Assembly: GCF_009177065.1 (NCBI RefSeq) | Contig: NZ_WEZF01000003.1 | Coordinates: 310,001-374,000 of the forward strand | Source of the DNA: Tautonia marina | GTDB taxonomy: Bacteria; Planctomycetota; Planctomycetia; Isosphaerales; Isosphaeraceae | DNA: 64,000 bases | Reading direction: 5' to 3' | Shown here: piece after piece, positions 11,426 through 58,468 of the stretch | Position numbering within the stretch: position 1 is the stretch's first letter | How the letters are laid out: every line of letters begins with the position of its first letter | Notes under the pieces: model-generated | Told to the model about the DNA's origin: nothing | The model's input: only the letters and a program-made list of their open reading frames with translations | Databases searched by the model: none | Made by a program: the position numbers and the translations under genes

Positions 11426-11458
11426 CCGTGACGCGACGCTCAAGGAAGGGTGTGACTC

Positions 11459-13780
11459 ATGGAGCGGATCATCCTCCCCTATGGCGGCCAGGCCGCCGGG
11501 GTTCCCCAAAACTCGATTGCCCCGGCGGCTTCGGCGGTTCCTGCGCCTCATACTCCGCCACCGGCCTACATCCCCATCGGCTCGGCCTCGGGCCCTTCCG
11601 GATCGACCGGCTCCCCCTCGGGCAAGACTCCGGCCGATTACCTCCGCGCTCTGCGTCGGCGGTTCTGGCTGATCGTCCTCGTCGGCGGGGTGCTGGCCAC
11701 CATCGGCACCACCCTGGTCCTGCGCCAGAAGCCCGTCTATCGGGCGTCGGCCCAGATCGAGATTGTGCCGCCGCAGTTTGACTCGATCCTCGCCAGCCTG
11801 ATGGCCGACGACTCGATTAACCTCTCGGCCGTCACCCCCGAGCAGTACGAAGCCAACCGCCTGGCCCACCTCCGCAACCGGCAGACCGTCGAGGAGGTGC
11901 TGCGAAGCCCCCGCATCGGGCCTCCGGTGCGGTCGGAAGGGGATCCGGTCGAGGAGCTGCTGGCCGAGCTTCGAACCAACCGTCTCGCGCAATCGACCCG
12001 TTACGACGTTCATCTCGAAGGTAACGACCCGTACCGCGTCGCCACGATCCTCGACCTCTGGCTCGAAGAGTACGAACGCGATTCGCAGGCCGAGGTCGAC
12101 ACCAAGGTCGCCAACTCGCAGGCCGCCGCCGAGGCCAACATCAAGAAGATGTACGACGAGCTGGCCGAGATTGACCGCCGGATCAGCCAGGCCATGGCTA
12201 ACTCGCCCGACCTCTCTCCCGACGGCGAGAACTACCTGGTCCGCCGCTACGAGTCGCTCGGCCTCCTGAAGATGCAGAAGCAGAACAGCATGGATCAGCT
12301 TCAGCATCAGCTCTGGATCGCCCGGATGTTCCCCAAGGAGCAGGGACCGGCCTTCTCGATCGAGCAGCGTCAGCTTGAGGATCTGATGGAACGCCGCCAA
12401 GCCCTCGACCTGAAGATCGGCGAGGTCGCCCGCGTCGCCCGCAACCCTCGCGACCCGGCCATCACCCGCTACATGAAGATGCGACGCGACCTGGAACAAC
12501 AAATTCATGATCTCCAGGCGATGTCGATCCAAGCGAGCGGCCCCCAGGAAGACCCGACCGCGACCCTCTTCTCCCAGTATCGCGAGGTTCTCACCGGCGA
12601 ACTGACCCAGATCGAGGAAGCGGAACAGGGAATCTTGCAGAAAATTCAGCGGATGGCCCCCGACCACAACCAGTTCAACACCTTGCTCAAGGAGCGAGAG
12701 CGCACCGCCGCAGGGATCGCCTCGCTTCGAGCGAAGATCGAACAGTTCGACGTGCTGTCGCAAACCCAGAACAAGCCCGTCCGTGTCGTTCAGCGTCCCA
12801 CACCACCAACCAAACCTGTCCGGCCAGGTTATACCTTGCTCGTGGCCCTGGTCTGCCTCGTCTCGATGGTCTCCGGAGTGGGGACCGTTTTGGCCATTGA
12901 ACACCTCGATCACTCGGTTCGGGCCCCTGAGCAACTGACGAGCGGCCTGACGCTTCCCTTGCTCGGCGTCGTCTCCCGCATGAAGCGTACGGCAAAGCTG
13001 CAACGCGGCGGGCACCTCTGGACCGCCGGCGCCCCGTACTCGGCCGAGGCCGACGCCTACCGGAACCTGCGAGCCAGCCTGGTCGGCATGACCTGCCCCG
13101 AGGGCAAGCCTGCTGTCACCCTGCTCGTCACCAGCGCCAAGGCCGGCGAGGGCAAAAGCACGACCGCCCTGAACCTGGCCGCCACCTGTGCCCGGTCGGG
13201 CGAGCGCACCTTGCTCCTCGAAGTGGACCTCCGCCGTCCGAGCCTCCGCCCGGTCTTCGACGATCCCGAGGCCGACACCGACCACGACCTCGGCCTTGTC
13301 GATGTGCTCCGAGGCGAGATGCCCTGGCAACGCACGGTCGTCTCGACCGACATCCCGAACCTCGACTTCCTGCCCGCGGGCGATCCCTCGGGCGTTCCGG
13401 TCGAGGTCCTCGGCGCCCTGGAGATGAAGCAACTGATCGCGGCCGTCTCGCGCCATTACGACCGGGTGATCCTGGACGGCCCAGCGATCCTCGGGCTGGC
13501 CGACTGCCGGATGCTCGGGCGGATCGTCGACTCGGCCATCCTCGTCGTCCGGGCCGGGGCGAACGACCTTCGGCCGGTCCTTCGAGCCCGCTCGATGCTC
13601 GAACAGTCGCAAGCCCCAATTGTCGGCGTCGTCTTCAATGGCTTGTGCGAGGACGTGAACAACTGGTCGTGTGTTTCTTCGTATCTTGATGAGCATGGCG
13701 AGCCGGTCGGTCCGGTGAGCACGGGCCGTCTCGGCGGCCGGTCGCGTGGAGCGGCCGGGGCGCTGGCTGCGGCCGAGTGA
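11459..13780 (+). CDS. Wzz/BY-kinase polysaccharide chain-length and export regulator (Wzc-like)
   Basis: Membrane protein joining a Wzz-type periplasmic domain to a cytosolic bacterial tyrosine kinase-type ATPase; such proteins control polysaccharide polymerisation and export. It has 773 residues. A Pro/Ala-rich N-terminus is followed by a membrane helix near 68-88, a long helical periplasmic region (100-440), a second helix near 455-480, then the kinase domain. Walker A is SAKAGEGKST near 559-568, Walker A' LLLEVDLRRPSL near 583-594 and Walker B VILDGPA near 670. The C-terminal tail has only an isolated tyrosine, not the usual Tyr cluster, so autophosphorylation is doubtful. AAGGAAGG lies upstream of the start. 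Confidence 0.9.
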   Translation: MERIILPYGGQAAGVPQNSIAPAASAVPAPHTPPPAYIPIGSASGPSGSTGSPSGKTPADYLRALRRRFWLIVLVGGVLATIGTTLVLRQKPVYRASAQIEIVPPQFDSILASLMADDSINLSAVTPEQYEANRLAHLRNRQTVEEVLRSPRIGPPVRSEGDPVEELLAELRTNRLAQSTRYDVHLEGNDPYRVATILDLWLEEYERDSQAEVDTKVANSQAAAEANIKKMYDELAEIDRRISQAMANSPDLSPDGENYLVRRYESLGLLKMQKQNSMDQLQHQLWIARMFPKEQGPAFSIEQRQLEDLMERRQALDLKIGEVARVARNPRDPAITRYMKMRRDLEQQIHDLQAMSIQASGPQEDPTATLFSQYREVLTGELTQIEEAEQGILQKIQRMAPDHNQFNTLLKERERTAAGIASLRAKIEQFDVLSQTQNKPVRVVQRPTPPTKPVRPGYTLLVALVCLVSMVSGVGTVLAIEHLDHSVRAPEQLTSGLTLPLLGVVSRMKRTAKLQRGGHLWTAGAPYSAEADAYRNLRASLVGMTCPEGKPAVTLLVTSAKAGEGKSTTALNLAATCARSGERTLLLEVDLRRPSLRPVFDDPEADTDHDLGLVDVLRGEMPWQRTVVSTDIPNLDFLPAGDPSGVPVEVLGALEMKQLIAAVSRHYDRVILDGPAILGLADCRMLGRIVDSAILVVRAGANDLRPVLRARSMLEQSQAPIVGVVFNGLCEDVNNWSCVSSYLDEHGEPVGPVSTGRLGGRSRGAAGALAAAE

Positions 13781-13825
13781 TCCCGAGCGTTTTCGCACCG
13801 ATTCGACTCGAACCGGAGACTCCCG

Positions 13826-15391
13826 GTGGGCACCTTTCGCATCCGCATCCTTGAATGGACCGATCGCCTCCAGGCGGGCATCCTCGTCGGGATGCTCGCC
13901 GGGACGGCCCTGGCTTTTGGCGGGGTTGTCTGGTGGTGGCGGCCGGTGATCGCCGCCTCGGCCGTCTTGCTGGTCGTTCTTGGCCTGGCCCGGGTGGCAA
14001 TCGAAGGGCAGGCCCGGATTCGATTCAGCCCCTTGCCGGTCCTGGGAGTCCTGGCCGTGGGCCTGGCGGTCGTTCAGCTCGCCCCGATTCCGTCGAGCCT
14101 GGCTCGTCGGATCGCTCCGGAAGCCCGATCGCTTCATGCCCGAGGGGTGCCGACAGCACTGGTCCTGGCCGACGACCCGGAGGCCGAGCTTCCCGAGGCT
14201 CTCGCCTCGCGGACCCCGGCCACGGTGGACCGATCGGCGACCCTCCGCTGGCTCTTTGACGCGAGTATCGGGCTCGTGGTCCTGATCACCTCGGCCCGGT
14301 TCGCCCGGAAGCTGGGCCGGACGATGGTGATCTGGGGCAGCGTGGTCGGGATCTTCGTGCTGATGACGGGCATCGGACTGGTCCAGATGGCCGGTGACGT
14401 GCCGGAGTTGCTGGGGATCATCACCCCTGGCAAGGCACCGAGCTGGGCTCCCTCGACCCTCGACCTGCTGAGGGCTCCCGGAACGTCGGTCCTTCGTCCC
14501 CTGGCCGAGGAAGGTGGGGCAACCGGGCCCTGGTTGCTCCCTCGACCCCATCGACCCTTCTTTCTCGGAAGTCTGATGGGAGGCCCCGGGGCGTACCTGG
14601 CGATTGGAGCCCTGGGCTTGCCGTTGTCGCTGGCCTTGCTGCTGCATCTGCTCGCTCCGCGGGGGAGCCGGGAACCGATGGCCGATCGAATCGGCCGGTC
14701 GGGGCTCGCCCCGCTGGTCGGGTTGCTCGTTCTGGTGGTCCTCTCCGGCTCGGCCCTGATCGGGGTGATCGCCGGGCCTATGCTGGCGATCCCGTTCGCG
14801 GTCGGCCTGGTGCTGGCAGGGCTGCCGGGGGCCTGGCCGACCGGGTTGCGATGGCTGGCGGTGGGGCTGACGGTTCTCGCCCTGGGAAGCCTCGGCGCGG
14901 GGGTTTCGGGCAACCGCCTTGCCGGTTGGGGGACCGATCCGAAGTTCGCGCCGATCACCGCCGACCTGGGCCGGGCCGAGCGGCTCTGGACCCAGTCGGC
15001 CCGGATCATCCGGGACTTCCCGATCCTTGGGACGGGACTGGGCACCTTCGGCCGGGTCATTCCGTCGTACAAAGCAACCGATGCCAGCCCAACGACTGCC
15101 GGCAGCAGCGTGTTGCAGTGGGTGGTGGAATCGGGCCTGGCCGGGGCGGGGGTGCTTGGCCTGGCATTGCTGTGGGGCCTGGCTCGGATCGTGAGGGCCT
15201 GGCGGCGGGTCGGATCGGCCGACCGGGCGTTGGCCTGTGGACTGGTGGCCTCGGCGGTCTGCTTCGGGGTCTTTGCCAGTGTTCACTGGACGGTCGAGTT
15301 GCCCGCCGTGGCCCTGTCGGCCTGTGCGGTGCTGGGGACCCTGGACCGCTGGCTGTCCGGTGGGACGGATCTGTTTGTCGAGGCCGCCTGA
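13826..15391 (+). CDS. O-antigen ligase/polymerase-like membrane protein (Wzy_C family)
   Basis: A 521-residue polytopic membrane protein of the O-antigen ligase/Wzy superfamily, which joins or polymerises lipid-linked glycan units at the outer face of the inner membrane. Around ten to twelve hydrophobic helices are visible. The conserved region near 395-420, with DFPILGTGLGTFGRVIPSYK, matches the usual Wzy_C segment after the large periplasmic loop. The GTG start is supported by GGAG seven bases upstream. Its place between the Wzc-like gene and the exosortase genes points to a role in the same surface glycan. Polymerase and ligase cannot be told apart from sequence. Confidence 0.82.
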   Translation: MGTFRIRILEWTDRLQAGILVGMLAGTALAFGGVVWWWRPVIAASAVLLVVLGLARVAIEGQARIRFSPLPVLGVLAVGLAVVQLAPIPSSLARRIAPEARSLHARGVPTALVLADDPEAELPEALASRTPATVDRSATLRWLFDASIGLVVLITSARFARKLGRTMVIWGSVVGIFVLMTGIGLVQMAGDVPELLGIITPGKAPSWAPSTLDLLRAPGTSVLRPLAEEGGATGPWLLPRPHRPFFLGSLMGGPGAYLAIGALGLPLSLALLLHLLAPRGSREPMADRIGRSGLAPLVGLLVLVVLSGSALIGVIAGPMLAIPFAVGLVLAGLPGAWPTGLRWLAVGLTVLALGSLGAGVSGNRLAGWGTDPKFAPITADLGRAERLWTQSARIIRDFPILGTGLGTFGRVIPSYKATDASPTTAGSSVLQWVVESGLAGAGVLGLALLWGLARIVRAWRRVGSADRALACGLVASAVCFGVFASVHWTVELPAVALSACAVLGTLDRWLSGGTDLFVEAA

Positions 15392-15445
15392 CGAGGAGCC
15401 GGGATGCCCCGCGTTGCGGATCAGCTTCAAGGAGGAGCGATCAGG

Positions 15446-18400
15446 ATGCACGATGCGGCCTATCTGCACATCCGAGCCCGGAATAGCCGGGCGACCCGGA
15501 TCGTCTCGCTGACCGAGGCGAGCGTCCGGATTGGCCGGGGCCGATCGTGCGAGGTCCGGCTCGATGACCCTGCGCTGGCCGAGGTCGAGTGCCTGCTCCG
15601 TCGCCGCGGGAACACCTGGCACCTCCAGCCAGTCGAGGCCTCCTCGACGCTGACCCTTGACGGTCGACCGGCCGACGCCCCCCGCCCGGTCCCGATGGGC
15701 TCGACGCTGCGACTGGCCGACCGCTGGTTGACCTTGCTCCCCACGATGGATGCCCCCGACCTCGATCCGGATCCCGACCCCACACTTCCCCCCGAGGAGC
15801 AGGTGGTCATCGCCAGCGAGCCGGAGCCGCAAACCCGCCCGCAGGATGAGCAACCCCCGGAGTCGTCCTCTGACCCCCTCGACCAGCAGAAGGCTGAGGT
15901 GGCTCGCCTCGAAGCCCGGCTCAAGCAGCGGGAACGATGGCTCAAGGATCGCTTGCACGAACGTCAATGGGAAGCCCGATGGCGAGCGGCCGGCGCCTCG
16001 ATCAAGAACCGGGAACGCCCCGTTGGGCAACCGGAGCCGAAGGTCCGCGCCTCCTCGGCCCCGTTGAGGCCAACGGTCACCCCGGAGCCCTCGCTCCGAG
16101 CACGTCGGGAACCCGTGGCTCCCGTCGCTCCTCGATACCAACGTCCGACCCCGAGCGAGCCACCGTCGTATCCCACCCCAGCGAATCGAACGCAACCGAA
16201 GGCGGCCCCTCGACCGTCCTCGATCGAGGACGAGGCGACCTGTCCCGAGGTCGCCGAACCGCCAATGGTCGAGGCTCCGCCCCAGAGCCGGGCGCTGCGA
16301 GTGACCCAGGAGATCGTGCCGGTCGAGACGCTGCTCCGATCGACCACCCCCGATCCTGAACTCGCCTCCGAATCGGGAGAGCCCACGCCCTTGGAGCAGA
16401 AGGCCGAGGAACCATCCCCCCAGACTGCTGAGTCTCTCCTGGAGGCGAGTCTCCTCGTCGAAGCGGAGGGGGTCGAACCCGGACCGATCGCGGTCGATGA
16501 GCAGGACGATCCTGTTGCGATCGACGACCAGGAGGACGCCACGGCGACTTCTGACGCGATCGAGCCGATCGACGGCATGATCGAGGCCCTGGCGGCCGAT
16601 CGCCTGGAGGAGTTGGAGCCGGCTCCCGATCCGACCGAGACGCCGGCGGTCGAGGGGTTGAGTCAGGTTGAGGTCGAGACTCCAGGCGATCCGATCGCCT
16701 TGGATCCGGCCCCGAGCGAGGAGCCCGCCGACCCGGCCCGCTCGACCTGCACCGAACTGGCAATCCCCTGGGAAGGGCCGAGCCTGGCGATTGCGGAGCC
16801 CTTGGCCTGCGTGGACACCGAGCAGACGGTTGAGCCGGCTTCGCCCGTCGAGAAGCGGCCGAAGCTCGGGGTGCCGATGATCGGACTGTCCGAACTCGTC
16901 TCGTTCCTGAGCCGTAAGCCTTCCGAGGTGACGCAGACCACCGAGCCCGAGCCCGAGCCGGAACCCGAACCGCTCGCGGCGCCGGAACCGGCGGTCGAGA
17001 ACCACGACGCGCCCGTGGAAAACGTGGCCGAGCCGACCGAACCGCGAGCCGAAACCCCTGCCGCCCCCGAGCCGATCGAGGATCCCTCGGAGCCAATCGA
17101 GCCCTTCGTCCCAGAGGCAAGCGGCAACGACGAGCCCGAGCCGATCGTCACGCGATCGGGTGACTGGCCCTCGGCGAAGGCCATCTTGACGGCTCAGCCC
17201 GATCGGGAGCGAGCGAGGTCGAGGCCGGCCGCTCGGAACCGAGCGGCGGCACGACTTCCGCTGCCGACCGACCGGATCGCCCCCGCCGGCTGGACCGTTC
17301 CCGGAGGTTCGTGGCTCTGCATTCCCTTGATGTTCGTGGCCGTGGCGGTCGGAGCGGTGGGCCTTCGGCTCTCCTGGACCTGGGCCGTCGTGGACCGAGA
17401 GACCGGACGCCTGGCCGATCAACTGGCCGACGGGAAGCGACCGGAAGGGACCACTCTGGAGCTGTCGATCGAACGCGAGCAAGAGCTGCCTCCGGCGAAA
17501 TGGTGGAACAGTACGTCCGATCAAATGATCATGCGAGCGGCCTTGCTCTCTGGACAGGGAGTGGGGTTTGATCCGGCCAATCAGGAGCGTGCCGGCGACC
17601 TCTTGCATGCGGCCTCGGGCAATGCTCCGGGACATCCGAGCCTGCGATTCGCGAAGGCCTGGCGAGCCCTGCAGGAGCCGGGGGTCGATCCGGCCGCTGC
17701 TGCCGTGGGGCTCAGTCGAGACGTCTGGAGCCTGTCCTGGACCGGACGGGCCTTGCTCGCGAAGGGGAACGTGGAGGCGGCGAAGCGGGTCTACCGATCG
17801 GCCCTGGAAATGGCCTGTCGCGCCCAGCCCGATCCCTCGGCAAGACCCACCTTTCATAGTGAACCCCGGGGGGGACGCTTCGGCCTCCCTCTGGAAGACC
17901 TGATCAACGTCGTCGTGCTCGACATGGCCAACCGGCCTGAATGGTCGACCGAGGACTGGCAAGACGTCTTGCCCGACGTGGCCGAGGTCTGGCTGGTGGC
18001 GGCCCGGTTGCTCCGGAATCGAGGCGATTCGGCGGCCGAAGCGGCCCTCGATCGAGCCATCGCGCTGGGTGAGGAACCGGCTCCTTCAGGATGCTCAACC
18101 GCCCTGCACGAGGCGGCCTCGGCCGAAGCCCTGGCGCTGGCCGGTCGCTTTGACGAGGCGGCCGAGCGGTACCAGTCGGCCGTCGAGCACCTCTCGAAGG
18201 CCGAGGAGCCGGCCCGGCGTTCCTGGATGTTCAACCTGGCCGAACTGTACGGCCGCACCGGCAAGAGCAGCGACGAGCGATCTTGCCTGCTGGCAAGCAT
18301 GACCACTGACCCGAACGACCCGGTCACGAGCGAGGCCATCCGCATCCAGCTTCGGCGCGGGATGAGCCTGGTCGGCACCGAAGGCGGCGAGGGGGACGGG

Positions 18401-18454
18401 ACCGACCTGTCGGTGACTGCCCGACCGTTGCGATCGCGGACCCTCGGAGAGTGA
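15446..18454 (+). CDS. FHA-domain, Pro/Glu-rich, single-membrane-helix, TPR-like protein
   Basis: A 1002-residue protein with an unusual layout. Residues about 10-95 form an FHA domain (IGRGRSCEVRLDD, then GNTWHLQP and LTLDGRPA), a fold that binds phosphothreonine peptides. Residues 110-600 are low-complexity, rich in Pro, Glu and Ala, with a coiled-coil-like stretch near 150-180 and a run of EPEPEP near 500. One membrane helix lies near 620-645. The C-terminal 330 residues are alanine-rich helical repeats resembling TPRs. The start was set by a strong AAGGAGG upstream. Its stop overlaps the GTG of the exosortase gene (GTGA), so the two are coupled. Function is unknown; a scaffold for the exosortase/glycan machinery is an inference. 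Confidence 0.8.
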   Translation: MHDAAYLHIRARNSRATRIVSLTEASVRIGRGRSCEVRLDDPALAEVECLLRRRGNTWHLQPVEASSTLTLDGRPADAPRPVPMGSTLRLADRWLTLLPTMDAPDLDPDPDPTLPPEEQVVIASEPEPQTRPQDEQPPESSSDPLDQQKAEVARLEARLKQRERWLKDRLHERQWEARWRAAGASIKNRERPVGQPEPKVRASSAPLRPTVTPEPSLRARREPVAPVAPRYQRPTPSEPPSYPTPANRTQPKAAPRPSSIEDEATCPEVAEPPMVEAPPQSRALRVTQEIVPVETLLRSTTPDPELASESGEPTPLEQKAEEPSPQTAESLLEASLLVEAEGVEPGPIAVDEQDDPVAIDDQEDATATSDAIEPIDGMIEALAADRLEELEPAPDPTETPAVEGLSQVEVETPGDPIALDPAPSEEPADPARSTCTELAIPWEGPSLAIAEPLACVDTEQTVEPASPVEKRPKLGVPMIGLSELVSFLSRKPSEVTQTTEPEPEPEPEPLAAPEPAVENHDAPVENVAEPTEPRAETPAAPEPIEDPSEPIEPFVPEASGNDEPEPIVTRSGDWPSAKAILTAQPDRERARSRPAARNRAAARLPLPTDRIAPAGWTVPGGSWLCIPLMFVAVAVGAVGLRLSWTWAVVDRETGRLADQLADGKRPEGTTLELSIEREQELPPAKWWNSTSDQMIMRAALLSGQGVGFDPANQERAGDLLHAASGNAPGHPSLRFAKAWRALQEPGVDPAAAAVGLSRDVWSLSWTGRALLAKGNVEAAKRVYRSALEMACRAQPDPSARPTFHSEPRGGRFGLPLEDLINVVVLDMANRPEWSTEDWQDVLPDVAEVWLVAARLLRNRGDSAAEAALDRAIALGEEPAPSGCSTALHEAASAEALALAGRFDEAAERYQSAVEHLSKAEEPARRSWMFNLAELYGRTGKSSDERSCLLASMTTDPNDPVTSEAIRIQLRRGMSLVGTEGGEGDGTDLSVTARPLRSRTLGE

Positions 18455-19437
18455 GGAGACGAACCTTGGCGACTTCCACCATCTCGGCCCGAGACGACGC
18501 TTCGGCGCCGGTCCCCCGTGAACTCCCGCCGTTGCTGGCCCAGATTCGGGACGGCTGGCGCGACCGCGACGGCCGAACGGCCCTGCTGGGGGCCGCGGCC
18601 TGCCTGGCCTTGCTGGCGGTCCTGTTCCGATCGACGCTGGTGCACTTTGTGCAGGTCTGGTCGACGGATCAGAACTACAGTCATGGCTTTCTGGTTCCCC
18701 TGATCAGCCTCTACTTTGCCAACATGGCGGCCCAGTACGGCCCGATTCGGCAGGTGCCGGCGGTGGGGGTGGGGGTGGTCTTGCTGATGATGGCCCTGCT
18801 GGGGCGGCTGGCGACGATCGTCGTGCCGGTCGGGATCGCCAGCGACCTGTCGTTTATCGCGGGGCTGGCGGGAATCGTGGCGTTGTTTGCGGGTCGGGAA
18901 GCGTTGTCTCGGTATGGGTTTGCGCTCGCGTTCCTGGTCTTCATGGTTCCCTTGCCAATCCACCTGTACACAACGATCGCCAATCCCTTGCAACTGATGG
19001 TCAGCAAGGCAGCCTCGGTGATCCTCAACGGCACCGGGTTGCCGGTGCTGTGCGAGGGGAACCATCTGACCTTGCCGGGCGGCGTCCGGATGTTCGTGGC
19101 CGAGGCGTGCAGCGGGATGAGGCAGCTCACCGGGTTCCTTGCCCTGACGACCGCCGTGGCCTTCCTGACACCGAGGCCGAGGTGGTATCGCCTGGTCCTG
19201 ATTGGTTCGGCCATTCCGGTGGCGTTGACGGCGAACATTGCTCGGGTGGTGCTGACCGGCTGGATCATGGCCTACGATCCGAAGCTGGCGCAGGGGACCT
19301 TTCACACGATCGAAGGGCTGTTGCTCATGGGATTCGGGCTGGCGTTGCTGCGGATTGAGTGCGCGATTCTGAACATGATCGTCGAGGAGGACCGGCCAGC
19401 CTCGGCCGCAACCAGCGCCGCCCCGGCGGCGGGATGA
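18451..19437 (+). CDS. Exosortase
   Basis: Multi-pass membrane cysteine transpeptidase that cleaves proteins carrying a C-terminal PEP-CTERM-like sorting signal and passes them to the surface. It has 328 residues with about eight membrane helices. The catalytic triad of the family is visible: C220 in EACSGMRQL, R265 in ANIARVV and H285 in GTFHTIEGLLL. A GTG start overlapping the upstream stop was used; a TTG 15 bases later with GAGGAG before it is an alternative. EpsI follows 78 bp downstream, the usual exosortase partner. No protein with an obvious PEP-CTERM tail was seen in the window, so targets must be elsewhere. Confidence 0.93.
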   Translation: MRRRTLATSTISARDDASAPVPRELPPLLAQIRDGWRDRDGRTALLGAAACLALLAVLFRSTLVHFVQVWSTDQNYSHGFLVPLISLYFANMAAQYGPIRQVPAVGVGVVLLMMALLGRLATIVVPVGIASDLSFIAGLAGIVALFAGREALSRYGFALAFLVFMVPLPIHLYTTIANPLQLMVSKAASVILNGTGLPVLCEGNHLTLPGGVRMFVAEACSGMRQLTGFLALTTAVAFLTPRPRWYRLVLIGSAIPVALTANIARVVLTGWIMAYDPKLAQGTFHTIEGLLLMGFGLALLRIECAILNMIVEEDRPASAATSAAPAAG

Positions 19438-19515
19438 TCGACAACCGCTTGCGCAACTGAGGACGACGACCGGGCAGCCCTGGGCCTTTTGCTTTCCGCG
19501 GGAGACTGACCAACG

Positions 19516-20190
19516 ATGACCACGACCCGACGCGCGGTGCTGGGCCTCGCGATCCTGAGCCTCGGCCTGGTGGCCGAAGCGGCGGTGGAACGGGCAACCC
19601 TGACCGACCGGCCGCCGTTGAAGCGGTCGTTGCAAACGATTCCGATGACCCTGGGAAACTGGGTCGGCAAGGATGAACCGGTCGACGAAAAGATCGCCGT
19701 CGAGTCGCAGGCGACCGAGTACCTGAACCGGGTCTACACACTTCGAGGGCGGCCGGGGGTGCAGGTCTGGCTCTGGATGAATTACTCGGATCGAGGGCTG
19801 AACCTGCGTCACTCTCCGGAAGTCTGCCTGCCCTCGGGAGGGTGGGAGAAGATCGAGTCGTTGACCAAGGTGGTTGCGATCGACCGGGCCTCGGGACCAC
19901 CGCAAGAGGTTTCGGTGCTGGGCTACGGCAAGAGTGAACTGGTCCAGAAGATCGGATTCTGGTACTACATTTTCGGAGAAGGTCGCATTGAGCGGTTCGT
20001 CCGGGGCCTGCCGATCTCCAGCCGGAGCAGCCACGGCCGCACCACGCGGGGGTCGGGACTGACGGTGGAGGTCTTCTACCCCAGTGAAACCGGGCTCGGC
20101 GATGACGAGCTGCGCGACTTCATTACAGAATTGCTCGACGTGATGGATCCGGTCCTGCCGGAGGATCGGGCCTCGTATCACATCCCCTGA
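19516..20190 (+). CDS. EpsI-family exosortase-associated protein
   Basis: A 224-residue exported protein of the EpsI family (DUF3485), found next to or fused with exosortases. A short N-terminal hydrophobic segment (about 6-23) acts as a signal or anchor. The conserved core is present: LGNWVGKDE near 52-60, YLNRVY near 74-79 and the signature HSPEVCLPSGGW near 102-113, including its invariant cysteine. It is required with the exosortase in exopolysaccharide loci of other bacteria, but its biochemical role is not settled. The start has GGGAGA upstream. Confidence 0.92.
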   Translation: MTTTRRAVLGLAILSLGLVAEAAVERATLTDRPPLKRSLQTIPMTLGNWVGKDEPVDEKIAVESQATEYLNRVYTLRGRPGVQVWLWMNYSDRGLNLRHSPEVCLPSGGWEKIESLTKVVAIDRASGPPQEVSVLGYGKSELVQKIGFWYYIFGEGRIERFVRGLPISSRSSHGRTTRGSGLTVEVFYPSETGLGDDELRDFITELLDVMDPVLPEDRASYHIP

Positions 20191-20316
20191 GTCTTCCTCG
20201 ACCCCGGCCCGACCGATCGCGCCCGGCATTGCCGACCGATCTGCTCGCGCCGAGGCCGCCACCGGGACGCAAGGACGCCCCCGGCCCCATCGAATGCCAC
20301 GCGGAGGGACGGATCG

Positions 20317-21357
20317 ATGAAGCATGCGTTGATCACCGGGATCACCGGTCAGGACGGATCGTACCTGGCCGACTTCCTGCTGGAGAAGCCGGATTACGTG
20401 GTGCATGGCCTGGTCCGGCGGACCAGCACCTTGAACCGATCGCGGATCGACCACATCGTCCGCAACCCGGCCTATGCCGATCGGTTCCACCTGCACTACG
20501 CCGACCTGGGAGACGCCTCCAGCCTGTCGATGCTGATGGAGACGATCCGGCCGGACGAGGTGTACAACCTGGGGGCGCAGAGCCACGTCCGCGTCTCGTT
20601 CGACCAGCCGATCTACACGGCCGACGTGGTGGGGGTGGGAACGCTCCGGCTGCTCGAAGCGGTTCGGCAGCTCGCCCGCAGCCAGCCGGTGCGGTTCTAC
20701 CAGGCGTCCAGCTCGGAGATGTTCGGCTCGGCCCCGCCGCCGCAGACGATGGAGACGCCGTTCCACCCGCGCAGTCCGTACGCCTGTGCCAAGCTGTATG
20801 CCCACTGGCAGACGATCAACTATCGGGAAGCCTACGGGCTGTTCGCCTGCTCGGGCATTCTGTTCAACCACGAGAGCCCCCGGCGCGGCGAGAGCTTCGT
20901 GACCCGGAAGATCACCGTCGGGGCCACCCGGATCAAGGAAGGCTTGCAGAAGAAGCTGGTCATGGGGAACCTCGACGCCAAGCGCGACTGGGGATTCGCC
21001 GGCGACTACGTGAAGGCCATGTGGCTGATGCTCCAGCAAGAGGAGCCGGATGACTACATCGTGGCGATGGGGGTGACCCATTCGGTCCGCGAGTTCCTGG
21101 AGAAGACCTTCTCGAAGCTCGACCTCGACTACAACGACTTCGTCGAGTTCGACGAGCGGTACATGAGGCCCTCGGAAGTGGACGTGTTGCTCGGCGACCC
21201 GAGCAAGGCGAAGCAGAAGCTCGGCTGGGAGCCGGAGGTCGATCTCGACGGCCTGGTGAGCATGATGGTCGAGCACGACCTGGAACTGGCCCGGAGGGAG
21301 AAGTACGCCCTCGGCTACAAAAGCACCGGGATCAACGCCCCCCACCTGAGCGTCTGA
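20317..21357 (+). CDS. gmd: GDP-mannose 4,6-dehydratase
   Basis: Extended short-chain dehydrogenase that converts GDP-mannose to GDP-4-keto-6-deoxy-mannose, the first step toward GDP-fucose, GDP-rhamnose or related deoxy sugars. It has 346 residues, normal length. The NADP-binding motif [11 protein letters not shown] is at 7-17. Catalytic residues are present: SSSE at 131-134 and the YxxxK pair Y155/K159 in [16 protein letters not shown] precedes the ATG. No fcl or rmd partner lies beside it, so the final sugar cannot be named. It supplies precursor for the glycans made by the neighbouring loci. Confidence 0.95.
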
Positions 21358-21386
21358 TCCCGCTCGCAGCCTGTGACTCGGACCTG

Positions 21387-21429
21387 ATGCCCCGGGGACG
21401 CCGCGATCGGCGACGGCCTTCCGGGGCAT
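21387..21429 (+). terminator. Hairpin after gmd
   Basis: ATGCCCCGG pairs with CCGGGGCAT (9 bp, perfect) and a smaller GCCG/CGGC stem sits inside. It starts 30 bp after the gmd stop. There is no U-run, so termination efficiency is uncertain. Confidence 0.45.
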
Positions 21430-21474
21430 TGGCCGTTGATGGCCGTCTCCCGAGTTCTTCCCCCGGAATCCGCC

Positions 21475-22518
21475 ATGAGGCTCAGCGTCCCTCGCAAACC
21501 GTTTCGACCCCGGCCCGACTGGTTCCTGATCGGCATGGCCGCCGCGGTGGGGCTGGCGTACCTGTTTCCAGGGCCGGGAGCCAGTGGCGGGGCCTTGAAG
21601 CCGGAAGTGCTGACCAAGGTCGGGGTGGCCCTGATCTTCTTTCTTCATGGGGTGTCGCTGCCGTTTGCGAGCCTACGTGAAGGGACGCTTCAGTGGCCCT
21701 TGCATCTCTTGATCCAGGGGTTCACCTTCCTCGTCTTTCCGGTGCTGGGCATCACGATGCTCTGGCTGGTGGGCGATGGGATGTCGCCGGGCCTGAGGCT
21801 CGGGTTCTTTTTCCTCTGCGCCTTGCCGTCCACGGTCTCCTCGTCGGTCGCGCTGACGGCCACGGCGGGGGGGAACGTGGCGGCGGCGGTCTTCAACGCG
21901 ACGATTTCGGCCTTGCTGGGGGTGGTCTTGACGCCGCTCTGGCTCGGCTGGATGGCCGAGGCGCAGGGCAAGGGGTTGCCCTTCGGCGAGGTGGTGATCG
22001 ACCTGGTGATCTGGCTGGTCTTGCCCCTGCTGCTCGGGCAGCTGTTGCGGCCCTGGCTGGGAGCCTGGGCGGGACGGAACAAGCGGTTCATCAACAAGGT
22101 GGATCGAGGGACGATCTTGCTCCTGGTGTACACCTCGTTTTGCGACTCGATGGAGCGAGGGGTCTGGACCGAGCATGGCCTGGGGCCGGTGGTGGGAACC
22201 CTGGTCGGGTCGGCGGCCTTGCTGACGATCGTGATTGCGGCGACCACCGTCTCAAGCCGATGGCTGGGCTTCTCCGACGCGGACCAGATCGCCGCCATCT
22301 TCTGCGGGTCGAAAAAGACCCTGGCCTCGGGCGTGCCGATGGCGTCGTTGATCTTCGGGCAAGACCCGCAACTCGGGCTGATCTTGCTGCCGATCATGGT
22401 CTACCACCCGCTGCAACTGGTCGTCGGCGGTGTTTTGGCCGGACGCTGGGCGCGACGATCGCTTGAGCAAGCCACCAAGGGGGCTCACCAGGCAACGGCA
22501 CCGTCGGAATCGTCGTGA
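21475..22518 (+). CDS. Sodium/bile-acid symporter family transporter (SLC10A7/YfeH-like)
   Basis: A polytopic membrane protein of the bile acid:sodium symporter (BASS) superfamily, 347 residues from the start used, with nine to ten hydrophobic helices. The family layout is seen in GVALIFFLHGVSLPF, CALPSTVSSSVALTATAGGN and FCGSKKTLASGVPMA, the last being the conserved segment of the SLC10A7/YfeH branch. Substrate is unknown. The ATG at MRLSVPRKPF was preferred because it places the first helix about 15 residues in, as in YfeH; an ATG 36 bases upstream is also possible. It has no clear functional link to the glycan genes before it. Confidence 0.87.
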   Translation: MRLSVPRKPFRPRPDWFLIGMAAAVGLAYLFPGPGASGGALKPEVLTKVGVALIFFLHGVSLPFASLREGTLQWPLHLLIQGFTFLVFPVLGITMLWLVGDGMSPGLRLGFFFLCALPSTVSSSVALTATAGGNVAAAVFNATISALLGVVLTPLWLGWMAEAQGKGLPFGEVVIDLVIWLVLPLLLGQLLRPWLGAWAGRNKRFINKVDRGTILLLVYTSFCDSMERGVWTEHGLGPVVGTLVGSAALLTIVIAATTVSSRWLGFSDADQIAAIFCGSKKTLASGVPMASLIFGQDPQLGLILLPIMVYHPLQLVVGGVLAGRWARRSLEQATKGAHQATAPSESS

Positions 22519-45976: not shown

Positions 45977-46111
45977 TTGGAAGAGAACCGAGGAGCGAAC
46001 CGCGCGAGCGGTTGAAGGGAGCCCCCCGACACTCGTAGCATGGAATCGCCGAGATCGTGGCCCCTCGGTCGCGGGTCGGGGGACGCGATCACTCCGCAGG
46101 AGACACCATAG

Positions 46112-47383
46112 ATGCTTGGAATTGATTCTCGACGAATCGCGATCGCGGGGGCTACCCTGGCCCTCATGATGGGGCCGAGCCTTCGGGCGTCGGAGCCGAT
46201 CGATCCGGCGCGGTTCGAGACGCTTCATCGGACCATTCAGCCAAGGCCGGATGAGGAGCAATGGCTGCAGATTCCCTGGGAAACAAGTCTATGGGAAGCA
46301 CGCCGCAAGGCCTCGGCCAAGGGGAAGCCGATTCTCCTTTGGGAGATGGACGGCAACCCGCTCGGCTGCACCTGAAACAACGGGGTTCTGGGCCGTGCGC
46401 TCAGTTTCTCGGATCCGGAGATCATCCGGATGGCTTCGGAAGACTTCATCCCGGTCGTCGGCGACGACTGGTATCAACGGCGACGACAGGACGCGGAAGG
46501 GGAATTTCTCCGCAAGGTCGCCGAGCAAGGCCCGCGAGGCGGCCAGGGTGGCGGCACGCTTCAGGGGATTTACACGCTGACACCTGATGGCACCTTGCTC
46601 GCCTACAAAAACGCCGGGCAGGCCCCGGACGTCATGAGAGAGGTGCTCAGGGGCGCACTCGACGCCTGGGAGCGTCTGCCGGAATCGCGCCGCCGCCCGG
46701 GGGCGATCGCCTCGGAGGAACTGGGAACGGTCGACGCGCAGTACGACCGAACGCCCCCAGAGGACGGTTTGATCGTCAAGGTCTTCACCCGGGCGCTGGA
46801 ACGAGACGACTCGGGGGCGAATCCCGATGTCTACTCCTGTGCCCCCGGTCGAGGAGGGGAGGCCGCTCGCGACCACCTCTGGTTGACTCGGTCGGACTGG
46901 CAGGCACTAATTCCCGAGGACCCGAAGCCTGGCCAGGTCGTTCCAATTCCCGACCGGGTCGTGCAGCGGATCGTTCGTTTCCACCTGGTCGACAACACGC
47001 GAGGCGAACCCCCGTTCTGGAGCAACGAAGAGGTTCGGGAGGCGTCGATGACCCTGACGGTCGAGGACGTGTCGCCCGATCGAGTGCGTCTCCGGCTCGT
47101 CGGCAGCGTGCTGCTCGCCACCTCAGCCGATGTGTCGCAGGCCAGTCGCGGGTATGACGCGAGCTTGCTCGGCGACATCGAGGTAGATCGCTCCTCCAAG
47201 TCAATCACCCGCGTTGACGTGGTGGCGCTGGGGGACCACTGGGGAGAAGGCCCGTATACCCGAGTCGCCCGGCCGGGACGGTCGCCGCTGGGAGTGGCGT
47301 TCACCCTTGTCGACGGTTCGAACCCGGCCGACCGGATCGCGCCTCAGGCAAGTCGGTACTTGCCGGGGTATCTCGATCCGTGA
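46112..47383 (+). CDS. Exported thioredoxin-like selenoprotein with in-frame UGA at codon 88
   Basis: One reading frame of 423 residues interrupted only by TGA at 46373-46375. The N-terminus has a signal segment (about 8-26). Residues 51-150 look like a thioredoxin-type fold: IPWETSLWEARRKASAKGKPI, LLWEMDGNPLGC, Thr, then UGA at 88, then NNGVLGRALSF, and later GIYTLTPDGTLLAYKNAG. C86 and Sec88 make a C-x-U redox pair. Residues 220-423 form an extra, mostly beta domain I do not recognise. A SECIS-like hairpin lies just after the UGA, and selA/selB are in this window. The frame keeps coding character and ends at a normal TGA. Read as two genes, the second would lack its signal peptide and active site. 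Physiological role is unknown; disulfide or peroxide chemistry outside the cytoplasm is an inference. Confidence 0.85.
46381..46411 (+). promoter_or_regulatory. SECIS-like hairpin following the UGA
   Basis: The upper stem C88-C93 of the local numbering (46388-46393) pairs with 46399-46404 in six base pairs including one G-U, around the loop CGTGC. Below an internal TT/TT loop, 46381-46385 pairs with 46407-46411 in five pairs, two of them G-U. Counting U of UGA as +1, the loop G and U fall at +23 and +24, the positions that contact SelB in E. coli fdhF. Confidence 0.7.
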
Positions 47384-53426: not shown

Positions 53427-56400
53427 ATGTCTGCGACCGAACGTCCTGCGCCCCGCCCGTTGCGCGATCGCCGGGGATTCATCTACAAGCCGGCAATCGG
53501 CAAGGGACTTCGGCCCTTGCTCTGGATCGTCCTGATCGGGTTCGCCGTGCTGGGAGCGACGGGGATCTACATGGCCAGCGTCACACTTCTGACCTGGCTC
53601 AGCGGAGCGCCCCAAGACACGTATTTCTACATGCTGATGGTGGCCCTGCATCTCTTTCTGGGCTTTGTCATCATTGTTCCGTTCATCGTCTTTGGTTCGG
53701 GCCACCTGGTCACCTCCTGGAATCGTCCGAACCGGTCAGCAATTCGACAGGGATACTGGCTGCTGGGCACGTCGGTCATCGTGCTGATTTCCGGAATCGT
53801 CTTGATCCGGATGGGTGGATTTGAGGTCCGTGATCCGGTCCTCCGGGAAATCGGCTACTGGCTGCACCTGATCACTCCTCCGCTGGCGATTGTGCTGTAT
53901 GTGCGCCATCGCCTGGCCGGGCCTCGGATCAAGTGGCACTATGCGAGGCTCTGGACGGCGGTGGTTGGGGTGGTGGTTGTCATGATGGGCATGATGCACG
54001 CCTTCGACCCGAGAGAGACGAACAAGGTCGGGCCTCGCGAAGGAGCGCAGTACTTCTTCCCGTCGGAGGTGAAAACGGCCGACGGCAACCTCATTCCGGC
54101 AGACACCCTGATGATGGACCAGTACTGCATGGACTGCCATCAGGATTCGTACGACGGCTGGTTCCACTCATCGCACCATCTCAGCTCGTTCAACAACCCC
54201 TTGTACCTGGCGAGCGTTCGGGAAACGCGAGAGGTATCGGTGGCCCGGGACGGCACAACCAAGGCCGCTCGATGGTGCGCGGGTTGCCACGACCCGGTGC
54301 CGTTCCTCTCGGGCAAGTTTGATGATCCGAACTATGATGACGTGAATGACCCAACCGCTCACGCCGGGATTACCTGTACGTCGTGCCATTCGATCACCCA
54401 CGTCAACAGCACGAGGGGCAACGGCGACTACACGATCGAGGAACCGCAGCATTACCCCTTCGCCAAGAGCGACCACCCGGTCCTGAAGTGGATCAACCAC
54501 ACCTTGGTGAAAGCCAAGCCGGAACTGCACAAGCAGACCTTTCTCAAACCCCTGCACAAGACTACCGAGTTTTGCTCGACCTGTCACAAGGTCAGCTTGC
54601 CGTTCGAGCTCAACCAGTACAAGGACTTCACTCGGGGCCAGAACCACCACGATTCGTATCTGCTTTCCGGAGTGTCGGGACACGGCGCGAGAAGCTTCTA
54701 CTATCCCGAGGTGGCAAAGACGAATTGTGCGGAATGCCACATGAACTTCATTCCCTCCGATGAGTTCGGCGCCCGCAATTTCGACGGCGAACCCGGCCGA
54801 GAGATCCACAATCACCTGTTCCTGGGAGCCAATACCGGACTGGCCGCCGCCCTGGGGGACGAGAAGGCACTGAAGGCTCATACGGAATACCTGCAGGACA
54901 ACAAGATCCGCGTCGATCTGTTCGGCGTGATCGAAGGCGGCACGATCGACGGGGAATTGATCGCGCCGCTTCGGCCAGAGCTTCCGGAGTTGACGCCGGG
55001 ACAGTCGTACCTGATTGAGGTCGTGGTGCGAACCTTGGGCGTCGGTCACCACTTCTCGCAGGGGACCGTTGATTCGAACGAGATCTGGGTGGAGCTGACG
55101 GCGTCGAGCGACGGCCGAGTGATCGGCAAGTCGGGGGGAATGGCCGACGACGGACACGTTGACCCCTACTCACGGTTCATCAACGTGTACATGCTTGATC
55201 GCCACGGCAACCGGATCGAGCGGCGGAATCCTCAAGACATCTTCGTTCCCCTCTACAACCGGCAGATACCTCCAGGGGCCGGTCAGGTGGTTCACTTCCG
55301 AATCGACGTTCCGGAGGAAGGCGTCACCGGGCCAATCGAACTGGAGGCGAAGGTCAACTACCGTAAGTTTGACCGAACCTATCTCGACTTCGTTTACGGT
55401 GAAGGGCAATGGCCTGACCCCGACGGCGACGGCGAGCCAAACCCCTTGCCGATCATTGTCATGGCGAGCGATTCGATCCGGTTGCCGATCGCCGGCGGTC
55501 CGACTCCGGAGAACCCGCCCTCACCCATCAAAGACGAATGGCAACGCTGGAATGATTACGGCATCGGCCTGTTCCTTGAAGGAGGCGAGCGAGGAGCTCA
55601 GAAGGGGCTCTTGAAACAGGCCGAACCCGTCTTCCTGACCGTGGCCGAACAGTACGGCAAGGCTGACGGCTGGGTGAACCTCGCTCGCGTCTATCGGCGC
55701 GAAGGCCGGATTCCCGAGGCCCTGGAAGCCCTTGAAAAGGCCGCGGCCGATCCCGAGTTCCGGGCGTCGTGGACGATTAACTGGCTCACCGGCCTGATCA
55801 ACATGGATCAAGGAAACCTTGATGCCGCCATCAAGAACTTTCAAGACGTGCTGAGCACCCGCGATCCGGCCCGGAAGTTCGATTTCAGCAAGGATTACAT
55901 CGTCATCAATGACCTCGGACGGGCACTCGACCGCCGGGGACGCATCGAGGCGATCGACAGCGACGCTCGGCTCGGCTACATGAGCCAGGCCGTAGCCGCC
56001 TTCCAGCGCACCCTGGCGCTCGACTCCGAAAACGAGGCGGCCCACTTCGGGATCGGCCAGGCGTATGCCGAGTTCGTTCCAACCCGATCAGCGTTCGAAC
56101 CGTGGGAAGGGGCTCCTCCGCTTCCCGAGGATCTGATCGAACTTGCCGAAACGATCGCCAAAGAAACCGCTTCGGCCGAAGATCGCTCCGCGATCCAGCA
56201 GGCCGAGGCACGAACCAAGCAGTATCGCTCCCTGGCACGGTCGATCGAGGCGTTCATGGAGGGTCCTCGACCTCCGTATTCGTCCCGAGTCGGAACCTTG
56301 ATCGAAGTGACCTCGCAGCTTGGCCCCGTCTGGGAAACCGAGGCGAACCGGGAGGCCCGCGCGGAACTGTCGAGGGCGCTGGAGACGGCTCATAAGGCGT

Positions 56401-56609
56401 TGCATGACCTGGTTCGACCAGACGACACTGCTCAGGGCCGGGCCATCCAGACAGCCCGACAGCAAAATCCCGCGGCGGACATGAACGCCCAGCCCATCGT
56501 AATCTATGACCTGCATCGTCCCGGAGCGCCGGGACTTCCTGACAACGCCAGCCGTCCCGAGTCCGCAACCGAGTCCGAGGTTCGAGCCAGCAGCGAGGTG
56601 ACGGAATGA
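53427..56609 (+). CDS. Membrane-bound pentaheme cytochrome c with TPR domain
   Basis: A 1060-residue protein with three parts. Residues 30-193 hold five hydrophobic helices, as in membrane cytochrome anchors. Residues 200-440 carry five CxxCH heme sites: C234-H238, C284-H288, C317-H321, C383-H387 and C434-H438. A beta-rich region with histidines follows (470-690), then about 300 residues of TPR-like repeats (WVNLARVYRREGRIPEALEALEKA). GAGGAGGG precedes the ATG. Multiheme proteins of this kind move electrons between the quinone pool and periplasmic or outer partners. The gene is coupled to a CRTAC1 lipoprotein gene by an ATGA overlap. Confidence 0.92.
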   Translation: MSATERPAPRPLRDRRGFIYKPAIGKGLRPLLWIVLIGFAVLGATGIYMASVTLLTWLSGAPQDTYFYMLMVALHLFLGFVIIVPFIVFGSGHLVTSWNRPNRSAIRQGYWLLGTSVIVLISGIVLIRMGGFEVRDPVLREIGYWLHLITPPLAIVLYVRHRLAGPRIKWHYARLWTAVVGVVVVMMGMMHAFDPRETNKVGPREGAQYFFPSEVKTADGNLIPADTLMMDQYCMDCHQDSYDGWFHSSHHLSSFNNPLYLASVRETREVSVARDGTTKAARWCAGCHDPVPFLSGKFDDPNYDDVNDPTAHAGITCTSCHSITHVNSTRGNGDYTIEEPQHYPFAKSDHPVLKWINHTLVKAKPELHKQTFLKPLHKTTEFCSTCHKVSLPFELNQYKDFTRGQNHHDSYLLSGVSGHGARSFYYPEVAKTNCAECHMNFIPSDEFGARNFDGEPGREIHNHLFLGANTGLAAALGDEKALKAHTEYLQDNKIRVDLFGVIEGGTIDGELIAPLRPELPELTPGQSYLIEVVVRTLGVGHHFSQGTVDSNEIWVELTASSDGRVIGKSGGMADDGHVDPYSRFINVYMLDRHGNRIERRNPQDIFVPLYNRQIPPGAGQVVHFRIDVPEEGVTGPIELEAKVNYRKFDRTYLDFVYGEGQWPDPDGDGEPNPLPIIVMASDSIRLPIAGGPTPENPPSPIKDEWQRWNDYGIGLFLEGGERGAQKGLLKQAEPVFLTVAEQYGKADGWVNLARVYRREGRIPEALEALEKAAADPEFRASWTINWLTGLINMDQGNLDAAIKNFQDVLSTRDPARKFDFSKDYIVINDLGRALDRRGRIEAIDSDARLGYMSQAVAAFQRTLALDSENEAAHFGIGQAYAEFVPTRSAFEPWEGAPPLPEDLIELAETIAKETASAEDRSAIQQAEARTKQYRSLARSIEAFMEGPRPPYSSRVGTLIEVTSQLGPVWETEANREARAELSRALETAHKALHDLVRPDDTAQGRAIQTARQQNPAADMNAQPIVIYDLHRPGAPGLPDNASRPESATESEVRASSEVTE

Positions 56610-58468
56610 CGCCACAGATGAACCACTCCGGCGGATCGACCTTTGACGTCTTGAACTGGGCGATCATTCTTGCGGTGGTCGGCGCCATTGCCCTGTCACT
56701 GACCGGCTGTGCCGGTGAGGCGAGTACGGAATACGTGCCCGAGGCCGTCGCCCCTGATCGCGCTCCGGTCGTCGAAGTCGCAGCCTTACCGACGGTGCGA
56801 TTCGTGGAAACGACCAACGACAGCGGCATCGAATTCGTTCATGAGAACGCGGCGAGAGGGGAGAAACTCTTGCCCGAAACGATGGGCTCTGGCGTGGCGG
56901 TCATCGACTACGACACCGACGGCGCCCCCGACCTCCTGTTCGTGAACCAGCTTCCCTGGGATGCCGAGGAAGGTGATGCCGGTGCGCCCACCATGGCCCT
57001 CTACCGAAATGACGGCACGGGCCACTTCACCGACGTGACCTCCGCCGCCGGCCTGGCGATTCCGATGCACGGCATGGGTGCGGTCGTCGGCGACATCGAC
57101 AACGACGGCGACCCCGACCTTTACCTGACCACGATTTCCGGTGGTCGGCTCTTTCGTAACGACGAAGGCGTGTTTGTCGAGATCACCGACGAGGCGAACG
57201 CACGAGCCGGTTACGGCTGGCTAACGTCCGGGACCTTCTTCGACATGGACAACGACGGGTTTCTCGACCTGTTCCTGTGCTGCTATGTCGATTGGTCGGC
57301 CGAGTACGACAGTTCTCAGGGGTTCCAACTCACCGGGACGGGGTCGGAGCGAGCCTACGGACCGCCGACCGCGTTCCGAGGCGACCACAACGTCTTGCTG
57401 AAGAACAACGGAGACGGGACCTTCACCGACGTGAGCGAAGCCGCCGGCATCCGGCTCGTGACCCCTGAGCTCAAGGATCCGATGGCGAAGGCCCTGGGTG
57501 TGGCCCCGTTCGACATCGACAACGACGGATTCGTCGATCTTGCCGTGGCGAACGACACCGTGCGGAACTTCCTGTTCCGGAACAACGGCGACGGCACGTT
57601 CGAGGAGCTGGGGATCGTCTCCGGCGTTTCGTTCGATCCGTCGGGGCAGGTCCGGGGGGCGATGGGGATTGACTGGGCCCACTTCCGCAATGATCGGTCA
57701 CTGGCCCTGGCAATCGCCAACTTCGCCAACGAGATGACAGCGTTTTACGTGGCGGACGACCCGTCGCGGATGCAGTTCATCGACCTGGCAAACGTCTTCG
57801 GCCTCGGGGCGCCCACCCAGCCACCCTTGAAGTTCGGCCTGTTCTTCTTCGATTACGACCTCGACGGCCGACTCGATCTCCTGTCAGTCAACGGCCACCT
57901 CGAATCGGACATCGAGAAAACCCAGGCGAGCGAAACCTATCGCCAGTCGGCGCAACTGTTCTGGAACAGCGGCCGACCGGGGCCGACCCTGTTCACTCAG
58001 GTGACGGCCGAAACGGTCGGGCCCGACCTGTTCACGCCAATCGTCGGGCGAGGCAGTGCTTATGTCGATTTCGACGGCGACGGCGATCTGGACGTCGTGA
58101 TGACATCCAACGGTGAACGTGCCCGCATCTTCCGTAACGACGGTGGCAACGACAACACCTGGGTGCGCCTCAAGCTGATCGGGCACGACTCGAACCGCGA
58201 CGCCATCGGCGCGAAGCTGGCCCTGAAGGCCGGCGGGGTCGAACAACTCCGCCAGCACTTCCCGGGCAAGGGGTATCTGTCGTCGGTCGAGTTCCCGATC
58301 ACCTTCGGGCTGGGCAAGGCCGATCGGGTGGAATCCCTTCGGATCACCTGGCCTTCGGGCGCTTCGACCGAACTGAGTGACCTGAAGGTCAACCGCTCTT
58401 ACACGATCGACGAGGCCGAAGGGATTGTCTCGTCCGTCGAGCCGAAGGACGGCCCCGGCGAAGGCTGA
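56606..58468 (+). CDS. CRTAC1-family lipoprotein (FG-GAP repeats and ASPIC/UnbV domain)
   Basis: A 620-residue lipoprotein: the signal sequence ends in LSLTGC (C35 the lipidated residue). The body is a seven-bladed-propeller-type array of FG-GAP/VCBS repeats with repeated D-x-D-x-DG calcium loops (DYDTDGAPDLLF, DIDNDGDPDLYL, DMDNDGFLDLFL, DIDNDGFVDLAV, DYDLDGRLDLLS, DFDGDGDLDVVM). The C-terminal ASPIC/UnbV domain covers about 510-605 (GAKLALKAGG, SVEFPITFGLGKAD). Function in bacteria is unclear. Its start overlaps the multiheme cytochrome stop, so they likely work together at the outer face. Confidence 0.93.
   Translation: MTPQMNHSGGSTFDVLNWAIILAVVGAIALSLTGCAGEASTEYVPEAVAPDRAPVVEVAALPTVRFVETTNDSGIEFVHENAARGEKLLPETMGSGVAVIDYDTDGAPDLLFVNQLPWDAEEGDAGAPTMALYRNDGTGHFTDVTSAAGLAIPMHGMGAVVGDIDNDGDPDLYLTTISGGRLFRNDEGVFVEITDEANARAGYGWLTSGTFFDMDNDGFLDLFLCCYVDWSAEYDSSQGFQLTGTGSERAYGPPTAFRGDHNVLLKNNGDGTFTDVSEAAGIRLVTPELKDPMAKALGVAPFDIDNDGFVDLAVANDTVRNFLFRNNGDGTFEELGIVSGVSFDPSGQVRGAMGIDWAHFRNDRSLALAIANFANEMTAFYVADDPSRMQFIDLANVFGLGAPTQPPLKFGLFFFDYDLDGRLDLLSVNGHLESDIEKTQASETYRQSAQLFWNSGRPGPTLFTQVTAETVGPDLFTPIVGRGSAYVDFDGDGDLDVVMTSNGERARIFRNDGGNDNTWVRLKLIGHDSNRDAIGAKLALKAGGVEQLRQHFPGKGYLSSVEFPITFGLGKADRVESLRITWPSGASTELSDLKVNRSYTIDEAEGIVSSVEPKDGPGEG

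Follow-up and report, generated by a model that had tools for sequence, protein, structure and literature searches.

The window analyzed here is a 64,000-nt stretch of the Tautonia marina genome (contig NZ_WEZF01000003.1, positions 310,001 to 374,000). Its forward strand carries, at 46112-47383, a reading frame that is interrupted by a TGA at codon 88, directly after the codons for G-C-T, and 335 sense codons follow in the same frame before the terminal TGA at 47381-47383, as a sequence-only reading of the window had noticed. A Shine-Dalgarno-like AGGAG is located about 10 nt 5' of the ATG start. A plain list of open reading frames breaks the gene in two, giving one ORF of 87 residues and another of 317 that starts at 46430. 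The features of this locus and the two selenocysteine (Sec) machinery genes of the window are as follows.

46098-46102, plus strand: likely ribosome binding site AGGAG, from sequence
46112-47383, plus strand: putative selenoprotein gene of 423 codons with UGA-88 as Sec, having homologs with the same internal TGA
46112-46189, plus strand: signal-peptide-like N terminus, residues 1-26, from sequence
46205-46690, plus strand: thioredoxin-like domain, approximate limits, from AlphaFold2 (AF2) element order and weak Thioredoxin_7 and DsbH profile matches
46367-46369, plus strand: Cys86, presumed resolving residue of the C-x-U pair
46373-46375, plus strand: predicted Sec codon UGA (codon 88), the same TGA across homologs
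46381-46411, plus strand: candidate bSECIS hairpin, upper stem 46388-46393 with 46399-46404, apical loop CGUGC at 46394-46398
46754-47380, plus strand: C-terminal beta domain, from a confident AF2 model
5675-7108 (about), minus strand: selA (TIGR00474, 522 bits versus a cutoff of 268)
7108-9330 (about), minus strand: selB (TIGR00475, 370 bits versus a cutoff of 242), with about 95 ORF residues before the match

Scanning the window protein against Pfam, NCBIfam, and PDB sequences returned nothing useful, and an Rfam scan of the window gave no match. The closest relative of the gene (83% identical) has the same in-frame TGA. Between the two, dN/dS is 0.17 upstream of the TGA and 0.11 downstream, which indicates that the downstream part is under protein-level selection. 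Homologs were found in 8 of 59 relatives' genomes, including the window's own, and eight of the nine matches have exactly one in-frame TGA, with the ninth, a paralog in genome G043, having Arg at that position. Well over 100 strong matches with a single internal TGA emerged when 392 genomes from the phylum were searched with a profile. Since the TGA is shared by the closest relative, is flanked by low dN/dS values on both sides, and lies at the aligned position in phylum-wide homologs with a single internal TGA, it is read as more than a chance stop. The sequence-only reading had named a sequencing error at 46373-46375 and homologs all ending at the UGA as outcomes that would speak against recoding; the former is excluded by conservation, and the homologs read on past the UGA. 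It had also proposed a search for homologs with Cys at position 88, and no Cys was found at the aligned site in any genome-derived homolog examined. The site is Sec in all but ten of them, which have Ser (six), Asp (two), Arg, and Asn. A larger nonredundant set, part of which was retrieved by a pattern that required TGN, comprises 160 members with Sec, 10 with other residues, and 10 without coverage of the site. A deeper search of 16 genomes found TGA in every site-covering match except the known Arg paralog, and genome G327 alone has 13 family matches, some of them partial. Carriers with complete genomes include the culturable planctomycete strains Pla163 and K23_9.

The codon at this site was also surveyed with a handmade DNA pattern, P-L/F-G/A-C-T-[TGN]-N-N-G, scanned over a genome collection. 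The pattern takes TGC and TGT (Cys) and TGG (Trp) as readily as TGA. There were at least 117 matches; all 117 listed have TGA and none of those listed has TGC, TGT, or TGG, and the downstream frame is the same protein in nearly all of them. The record titles include Planctomycetota, Verrucomicrobiota, Kiritimatiellia, Armatimonadota, Chloroflexota, Latescibacterota, Poribacteria, Neomarinimicrobiota, and one Actinomycetota metagenome-assembled genome (MAG). Single MAG contigs may be misbinned, but the multiphylum spread does not depend on any one of them. An even draw of 289 genomes from the phylum of one verrucomicrobial carrier contained just 2 with the family, which is rare there. The absence of Cys forms is an observation limited to the genomes searched and falls short of proof. 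The protein is probably exported, as judged heuristically from its signal-peptide-like N terminus (MLGIDSRRIAIAGATLALMMGPSLRA), and 102 of 111 testable homologs also have an N-terminal hydrophobic stretch by the same kind of heuristic. Of the "secreted planctomycete selenoprotein" of the sequence-only reading, export is thus upheld on these grounds and the restriction to planctomycetes is not, since other phyla carry the family.

The apical loop of the candidate bSECIS hairpin, CGUGC, begins 18 nt after the UGA. This places the hairpin within the published bSECIS model, in which a small apical loop with a G in its first two positions lies 16 to 37 nt after the UGA (PMC13188914). The folding energy of the full hairpin, -10.3 kcal/mol, satisfies the published limit of -7.5, and that of the upper stem alone, -7.3, is borderline. 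The single-sequence energy is only moderately better than that of shuffles (z about -1.6), and the case for the SECIS element therefore rests on comparison. For the STF type, 24 homologs were compared; 97.5% of cells form the five-pair stem, and compensatory changes occur in four of the five pairs, with 17 double-change cells versus 5.7 in shuffles. Across a larger set, 89 of 89 sequences pair the Leu-position codon's wobble base with its partner. In the Leu and Ser (TCN) codon cases, 37 of 37 pair versus 63% expected (permutation p about 5e-5, with sequences taken as independent); changes at this wobble pair are silent, so the covariation is partly synonymous. The stem is not formed in the ten non-Sec homologs, which have at most three of the five pairs. 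In members of the RRSVW type the hairpin is moved by about five bases, and the covariation tested there is weak and not convincing.

The genome has the machinery that Sec insertion calls for. The selA and selB genes, described as intact from sequence, both score above the NCBIfam cutoffs. The absence of selC or selD from the genome had been put forward as a further argument against recoding, and both are present: a tRNA-Sec (selC) with anticodon TCA, and a Sec-type SelD (L204; G000:C26:63918-64850, minus strand) that is itself a selenoprotein, with an in-frame UGA in NCAGUAGK at the expected site. All four genes, selA, selB, selC, and selD, are therefore found in the window genome. In the planctomycete sample, selB accompanies a TGA member in 86 of 91 genomes and is present in 150 of the 301 others (Fisher p about 1e-16, with genomes hand-counted from two tables and treated as independent). 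In the five of these 91 genomes that have no selB, tRNA-Sec and selA are both present, so that Sec machinery is present in 91 of 91. Three genomes that have only Ser or Asn members and no selB are also without tRNA-Sec and selA. Among 18 motif-carrying genomes, mostly nonplanctomycete, selB was present in 16, and the remaining two had either selA or tRNA-Sec. In addition, in four Rhodopirellula-type loci (L088, L097, L145, and L181) the family gene lies about 250 to 1,100 bp from a pyridine-nucleotide oxidoreductase/SelD fusion and selA, and selB is next to this cluster in the one such locus checked for it. With the conserved TGA, the SECIS covariation, and the full machinery, the Sec recoding proposed from sequence is well supported, and UGA-88 is almost certainly decoded as Sec.

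AlphaFold2, given an alignment of 100 diverse Sec-containing members with Sec entered as Cys, predicted one fold straight through the former stop (mean pLDDT 93.9; pTM 0.93). The N-terminal half of the model has a thioredoxin-like order of elements, with Sec starting the active-site helix (model residues 67-74), and from about residue 215 onward the C-terminal half consists mainly of beta structure. Neither a shallow model nor the later deep one had a PDB match at E≤0.001 in Foldseek. The thioredoxin-like assignment therefore rests on element order and on weak Pfam matches among the 100 members, to Thioredoxin_7 in 11 and DsbH in 6. Partial fold matches to GPX8, tryparedoxin peroxidase, DipZ, and OmpA were not trusted and were rejected. 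Both domains of the sequence-only reading are supported by these results, the thioredoxin-like one by the element order and profiles and the beta domain without a recognized relative by a confident model that lacks a PDB match at this threshold. Alignment with PDB entry 3ira (DUF255) places U at the first Cys of its CHWC motif, which indicates that CxxC has been turned into U-N-N-G. Residues W56, U88, R95, G152, and G354 (window-protein numbering) are invariant in the 100-row alignment, and those conserved in at least 90% of rows include C86, N89, N90, G91, Q151, Y154, W257, D294, and G298. Cys occupies position -2 from Sec in 149 of 159 members and position -1 in 6 of 159, and a few members have no nearby Cys; the C-x-U pair pointed out from sequence is therefore common and not universal. 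By-eye alignment with the DUF255 motif suggests that the near-invariant Gln151-Gly152 may stand at the place of the thioredoxin cis-Pro loop, facing the active site. The conservation of W, Q, and N prompted consideration of a U-Q-W-N tetrad like that of glutathione peroxidases; this was rejected because the order differs and because the conserved W is one that we take to be a general Trx7-type feature.

A periplasmic selenol enzyme of peroxidase- or reductase-like character is the favored interpretation, with disulfide reduction and metal binding as its rivals. SelB and tRNA-Sec would decode UGA-88 under the direction of the bSECIS hairpin just downstream, and Sec would take the place of the first, nucleophilic Cys of the thioredoxin CxxC, with the second replaced by Gly. 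The selenolate may then attack an oxidized substrate (a peroxide, a sulfoxide, or a protein disulfide) in the periplasm, and the Cys two residues upstream, or adjacent in a few members, may resolve the selenenic acid or mixed selenosulfide. The Gln151-Gly152 loop would face this site, and the beta domain might hold the substrate. This explanation draws on a conserved UGA that is never replaced by Cys, on purifying selection on both sides of it, and on SECIS covariation that is absent from non-Sec homologs. It also draws on the presence of selA and selB in the window, on a genomic tRNA-Sec and Sec-type SelD, on the co-occurrence with the machinery, and on the selD-selA linkage in four loci, as well as on one confident fold through the UGA, the match of U to the first CHWC Cys of 3ira, and the Cys that 155 of 159 members have at -2 or -1. 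The few members without a nearby Cys and those without Sec count against it, as does the lack of a significant Foldseek match for the thioredoxin-like assignment. We consider it fairly probable that the gene represents a Sec-decoded, apparently uncatalogued family of probably exported, periplasmic selenol oxidoreductases with a Cys-x-Sec site, and the oxidoreductase mechanism taken separately is slightly less secure but still favored.

The strongest rival is that the same selenoprotein works on exported proteins as a thiol-disulfide reductase or isomerase and not as a peroxidase-like enzyme. The thioredoxin-like domain and the export signal would suit this role, and there is a weak, nonsignificant fold likeness to the C-terminal domain of DipZ, which also combines a thioredoxin and a beta domain; however, Gly replaces the second Cys of CxxC and the partner Cys lies upstream instead, and we regard this role as possible and distinctly less probable than the favored one. 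It is rather unlikely that Sec and Cys bind a metal or metalloid without redox catalysis, as in a metallochaperone or metal sensor. C-x-U and C-U pairs are known in metal-related selenoproteins (PMC13188914), and a Cys is nearby in 155 of 159 members, but the Sec sits at a thioredoxin-type active-site position with invariant flanking residues, and recurrent metal-resistance neighbors are absent among the flanking genes inspected. Reading of the UGA as Trp, Cys, or Arg, by suppression or a lineage-specific code, is very improbable: each protein has a single UGA at one site, the same gene ends on UGA, tRNA-Sec is present, the SECIS element occurs only together with the UGA, and genomes without the machinery have lost the UGA. 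A pseudogene or sequencing error, which would account for the break seen by a plain ORF caller, is refuted by conservation and has a negligible chance, given the same TGA in more than 100 independent genomes and the dN/dS of 0.11 downstream.

For the evolution of the family, a Cys-bearing ancestor within the thioredoxin superfamily is likely. Six changes are needed to account for the non-Sec state on a tree of 85 members, and starred branches force five of these; this tree cannot separate gain from loss, and the broad distribution of Sec favors repeated loss. Four genomes (G163, G211, G249, and G043) each carry a non-Sec gene no more than about 5 kb from a Sec gene, the two sharing contig and strand; the non-Sec gene has Ser in G163 (L050), Asp in G249 (L055) and G211 (L057), and Arg in G043 (L006/L009). 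Such pairs look like an enzyme and a pseudoenzyme kept together. Cys forms outnumber Sec forms in most selenoprotein families (PMC1794560), and the lack of any Cys exchange here is therefore unusual. We lean toward an enzyme family that is exclusive to Sec, occurs in several bacterial phyla, and uses selenium for something that sulfur cannot do; Sec would have been lost repeatedly to Ser, Asp, Arg, or Asn and never to Cys, and tandem Sec-less paralogs are possible pseudoenzyme partners. Exchange of Sec for Cys makes the question of what selenium can do that sulfur cannot a testable one, and the Ser and Asp paralogs are natural controls.

This large family is likely new and Sec-exclusive. Among the 119 prokaryotic selenoprotein families catalogued in 2026 (PMC13188914, Table 1), none fits it, and no NCBIfam (June 2026) or Pfam model recognizes it. 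No description was found in the literature, in which the candidate table of the planctomycete selenoprotein paper PMC4807772 lay outside the comparison, and "uncatalogued" is therefore likely rather than proven. The nearest NCBIfam models, the VPGUxxT thioredoxin-like (seleno)proteins NF041382 and NF041383, likewise have a thioredoxin-like domain with Sec near the first CxxC position but differ in motif and have no C-terminal beta domain in common with the family; their best E value against it is 3e-4, and singly scored members reach 12 to 17 bits, below the cutoffs of 275 to 350. Thioredoxin_7 (PF13899) and DsbH/DUF255 (PF03190; PDB 3ira) show weak sequence similarity across the thioredoxin part, but they are Cys proteins with CxxC, whereas the new family has U-N-N-G, an upstream Cys, and an extra beta domain. 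The CxU selenoproteins of the 2026 catalogue (thioredoxin-like Sec.1, UshA-like, and rhodanese form 3) also have a Cys-x-Sec pair (PMC13188914), but they are assigned to other domains and their models match no family member. Homologs with Cys at the Sec position are usual in selenoprotein families though not required, and none was found here. Glycine reductase selenoprotein A (GrdA), compared from the literature only, is a precedent as a selenoprotein without known Cys homologs (PMC1794560), but it is an unrelated protein with a CxxU motif.

The family, a large one, is an addition to the selenoproteomes of phyla in which these have hardly been studied, and many genomes will have the gene annotated as two fragments or as a pseudogene. 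Most known selenoprotein families have many Cys homologs, and common discovery methods rely on them. If the family is truly Sec-exclusive, methods based on Sec/Cys pairs would be blind to families of this kind, and further ones may therefore remain. According to its authors, deep-Sep may itself overlook selenoproteins that have no Cys homologs.

No single conserved neighbor emerges from the flanking genes inspected, and the surroundings are mixed outside the four Rhodopirellula-type loci and a group of six. In these six loci, all from one planctomycete group (L079, L084, L087, L112, L174, and L177), a protein without an assigned family and with a membrane-anchor-like stretch is encoded 38 to 56 bp upstream. 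It is preceded by an ECF-type sigma factor in L087, which would be compatible with envelope-stress control, and by an ECF-like one, judged by sequence, in L084. Elsewhere in the window, the minus strand has two very long open frames, at 9569-17857 and 17854-21648 (2,762 and 1,264 codons), which may be giant genes or shadows of opposite-strand genes. On the plus strand, 53427-58468 appears by eye to encode a large protein with repeated CxxCH heme motifs, followed by a protein with FG-GAP-like repeats.
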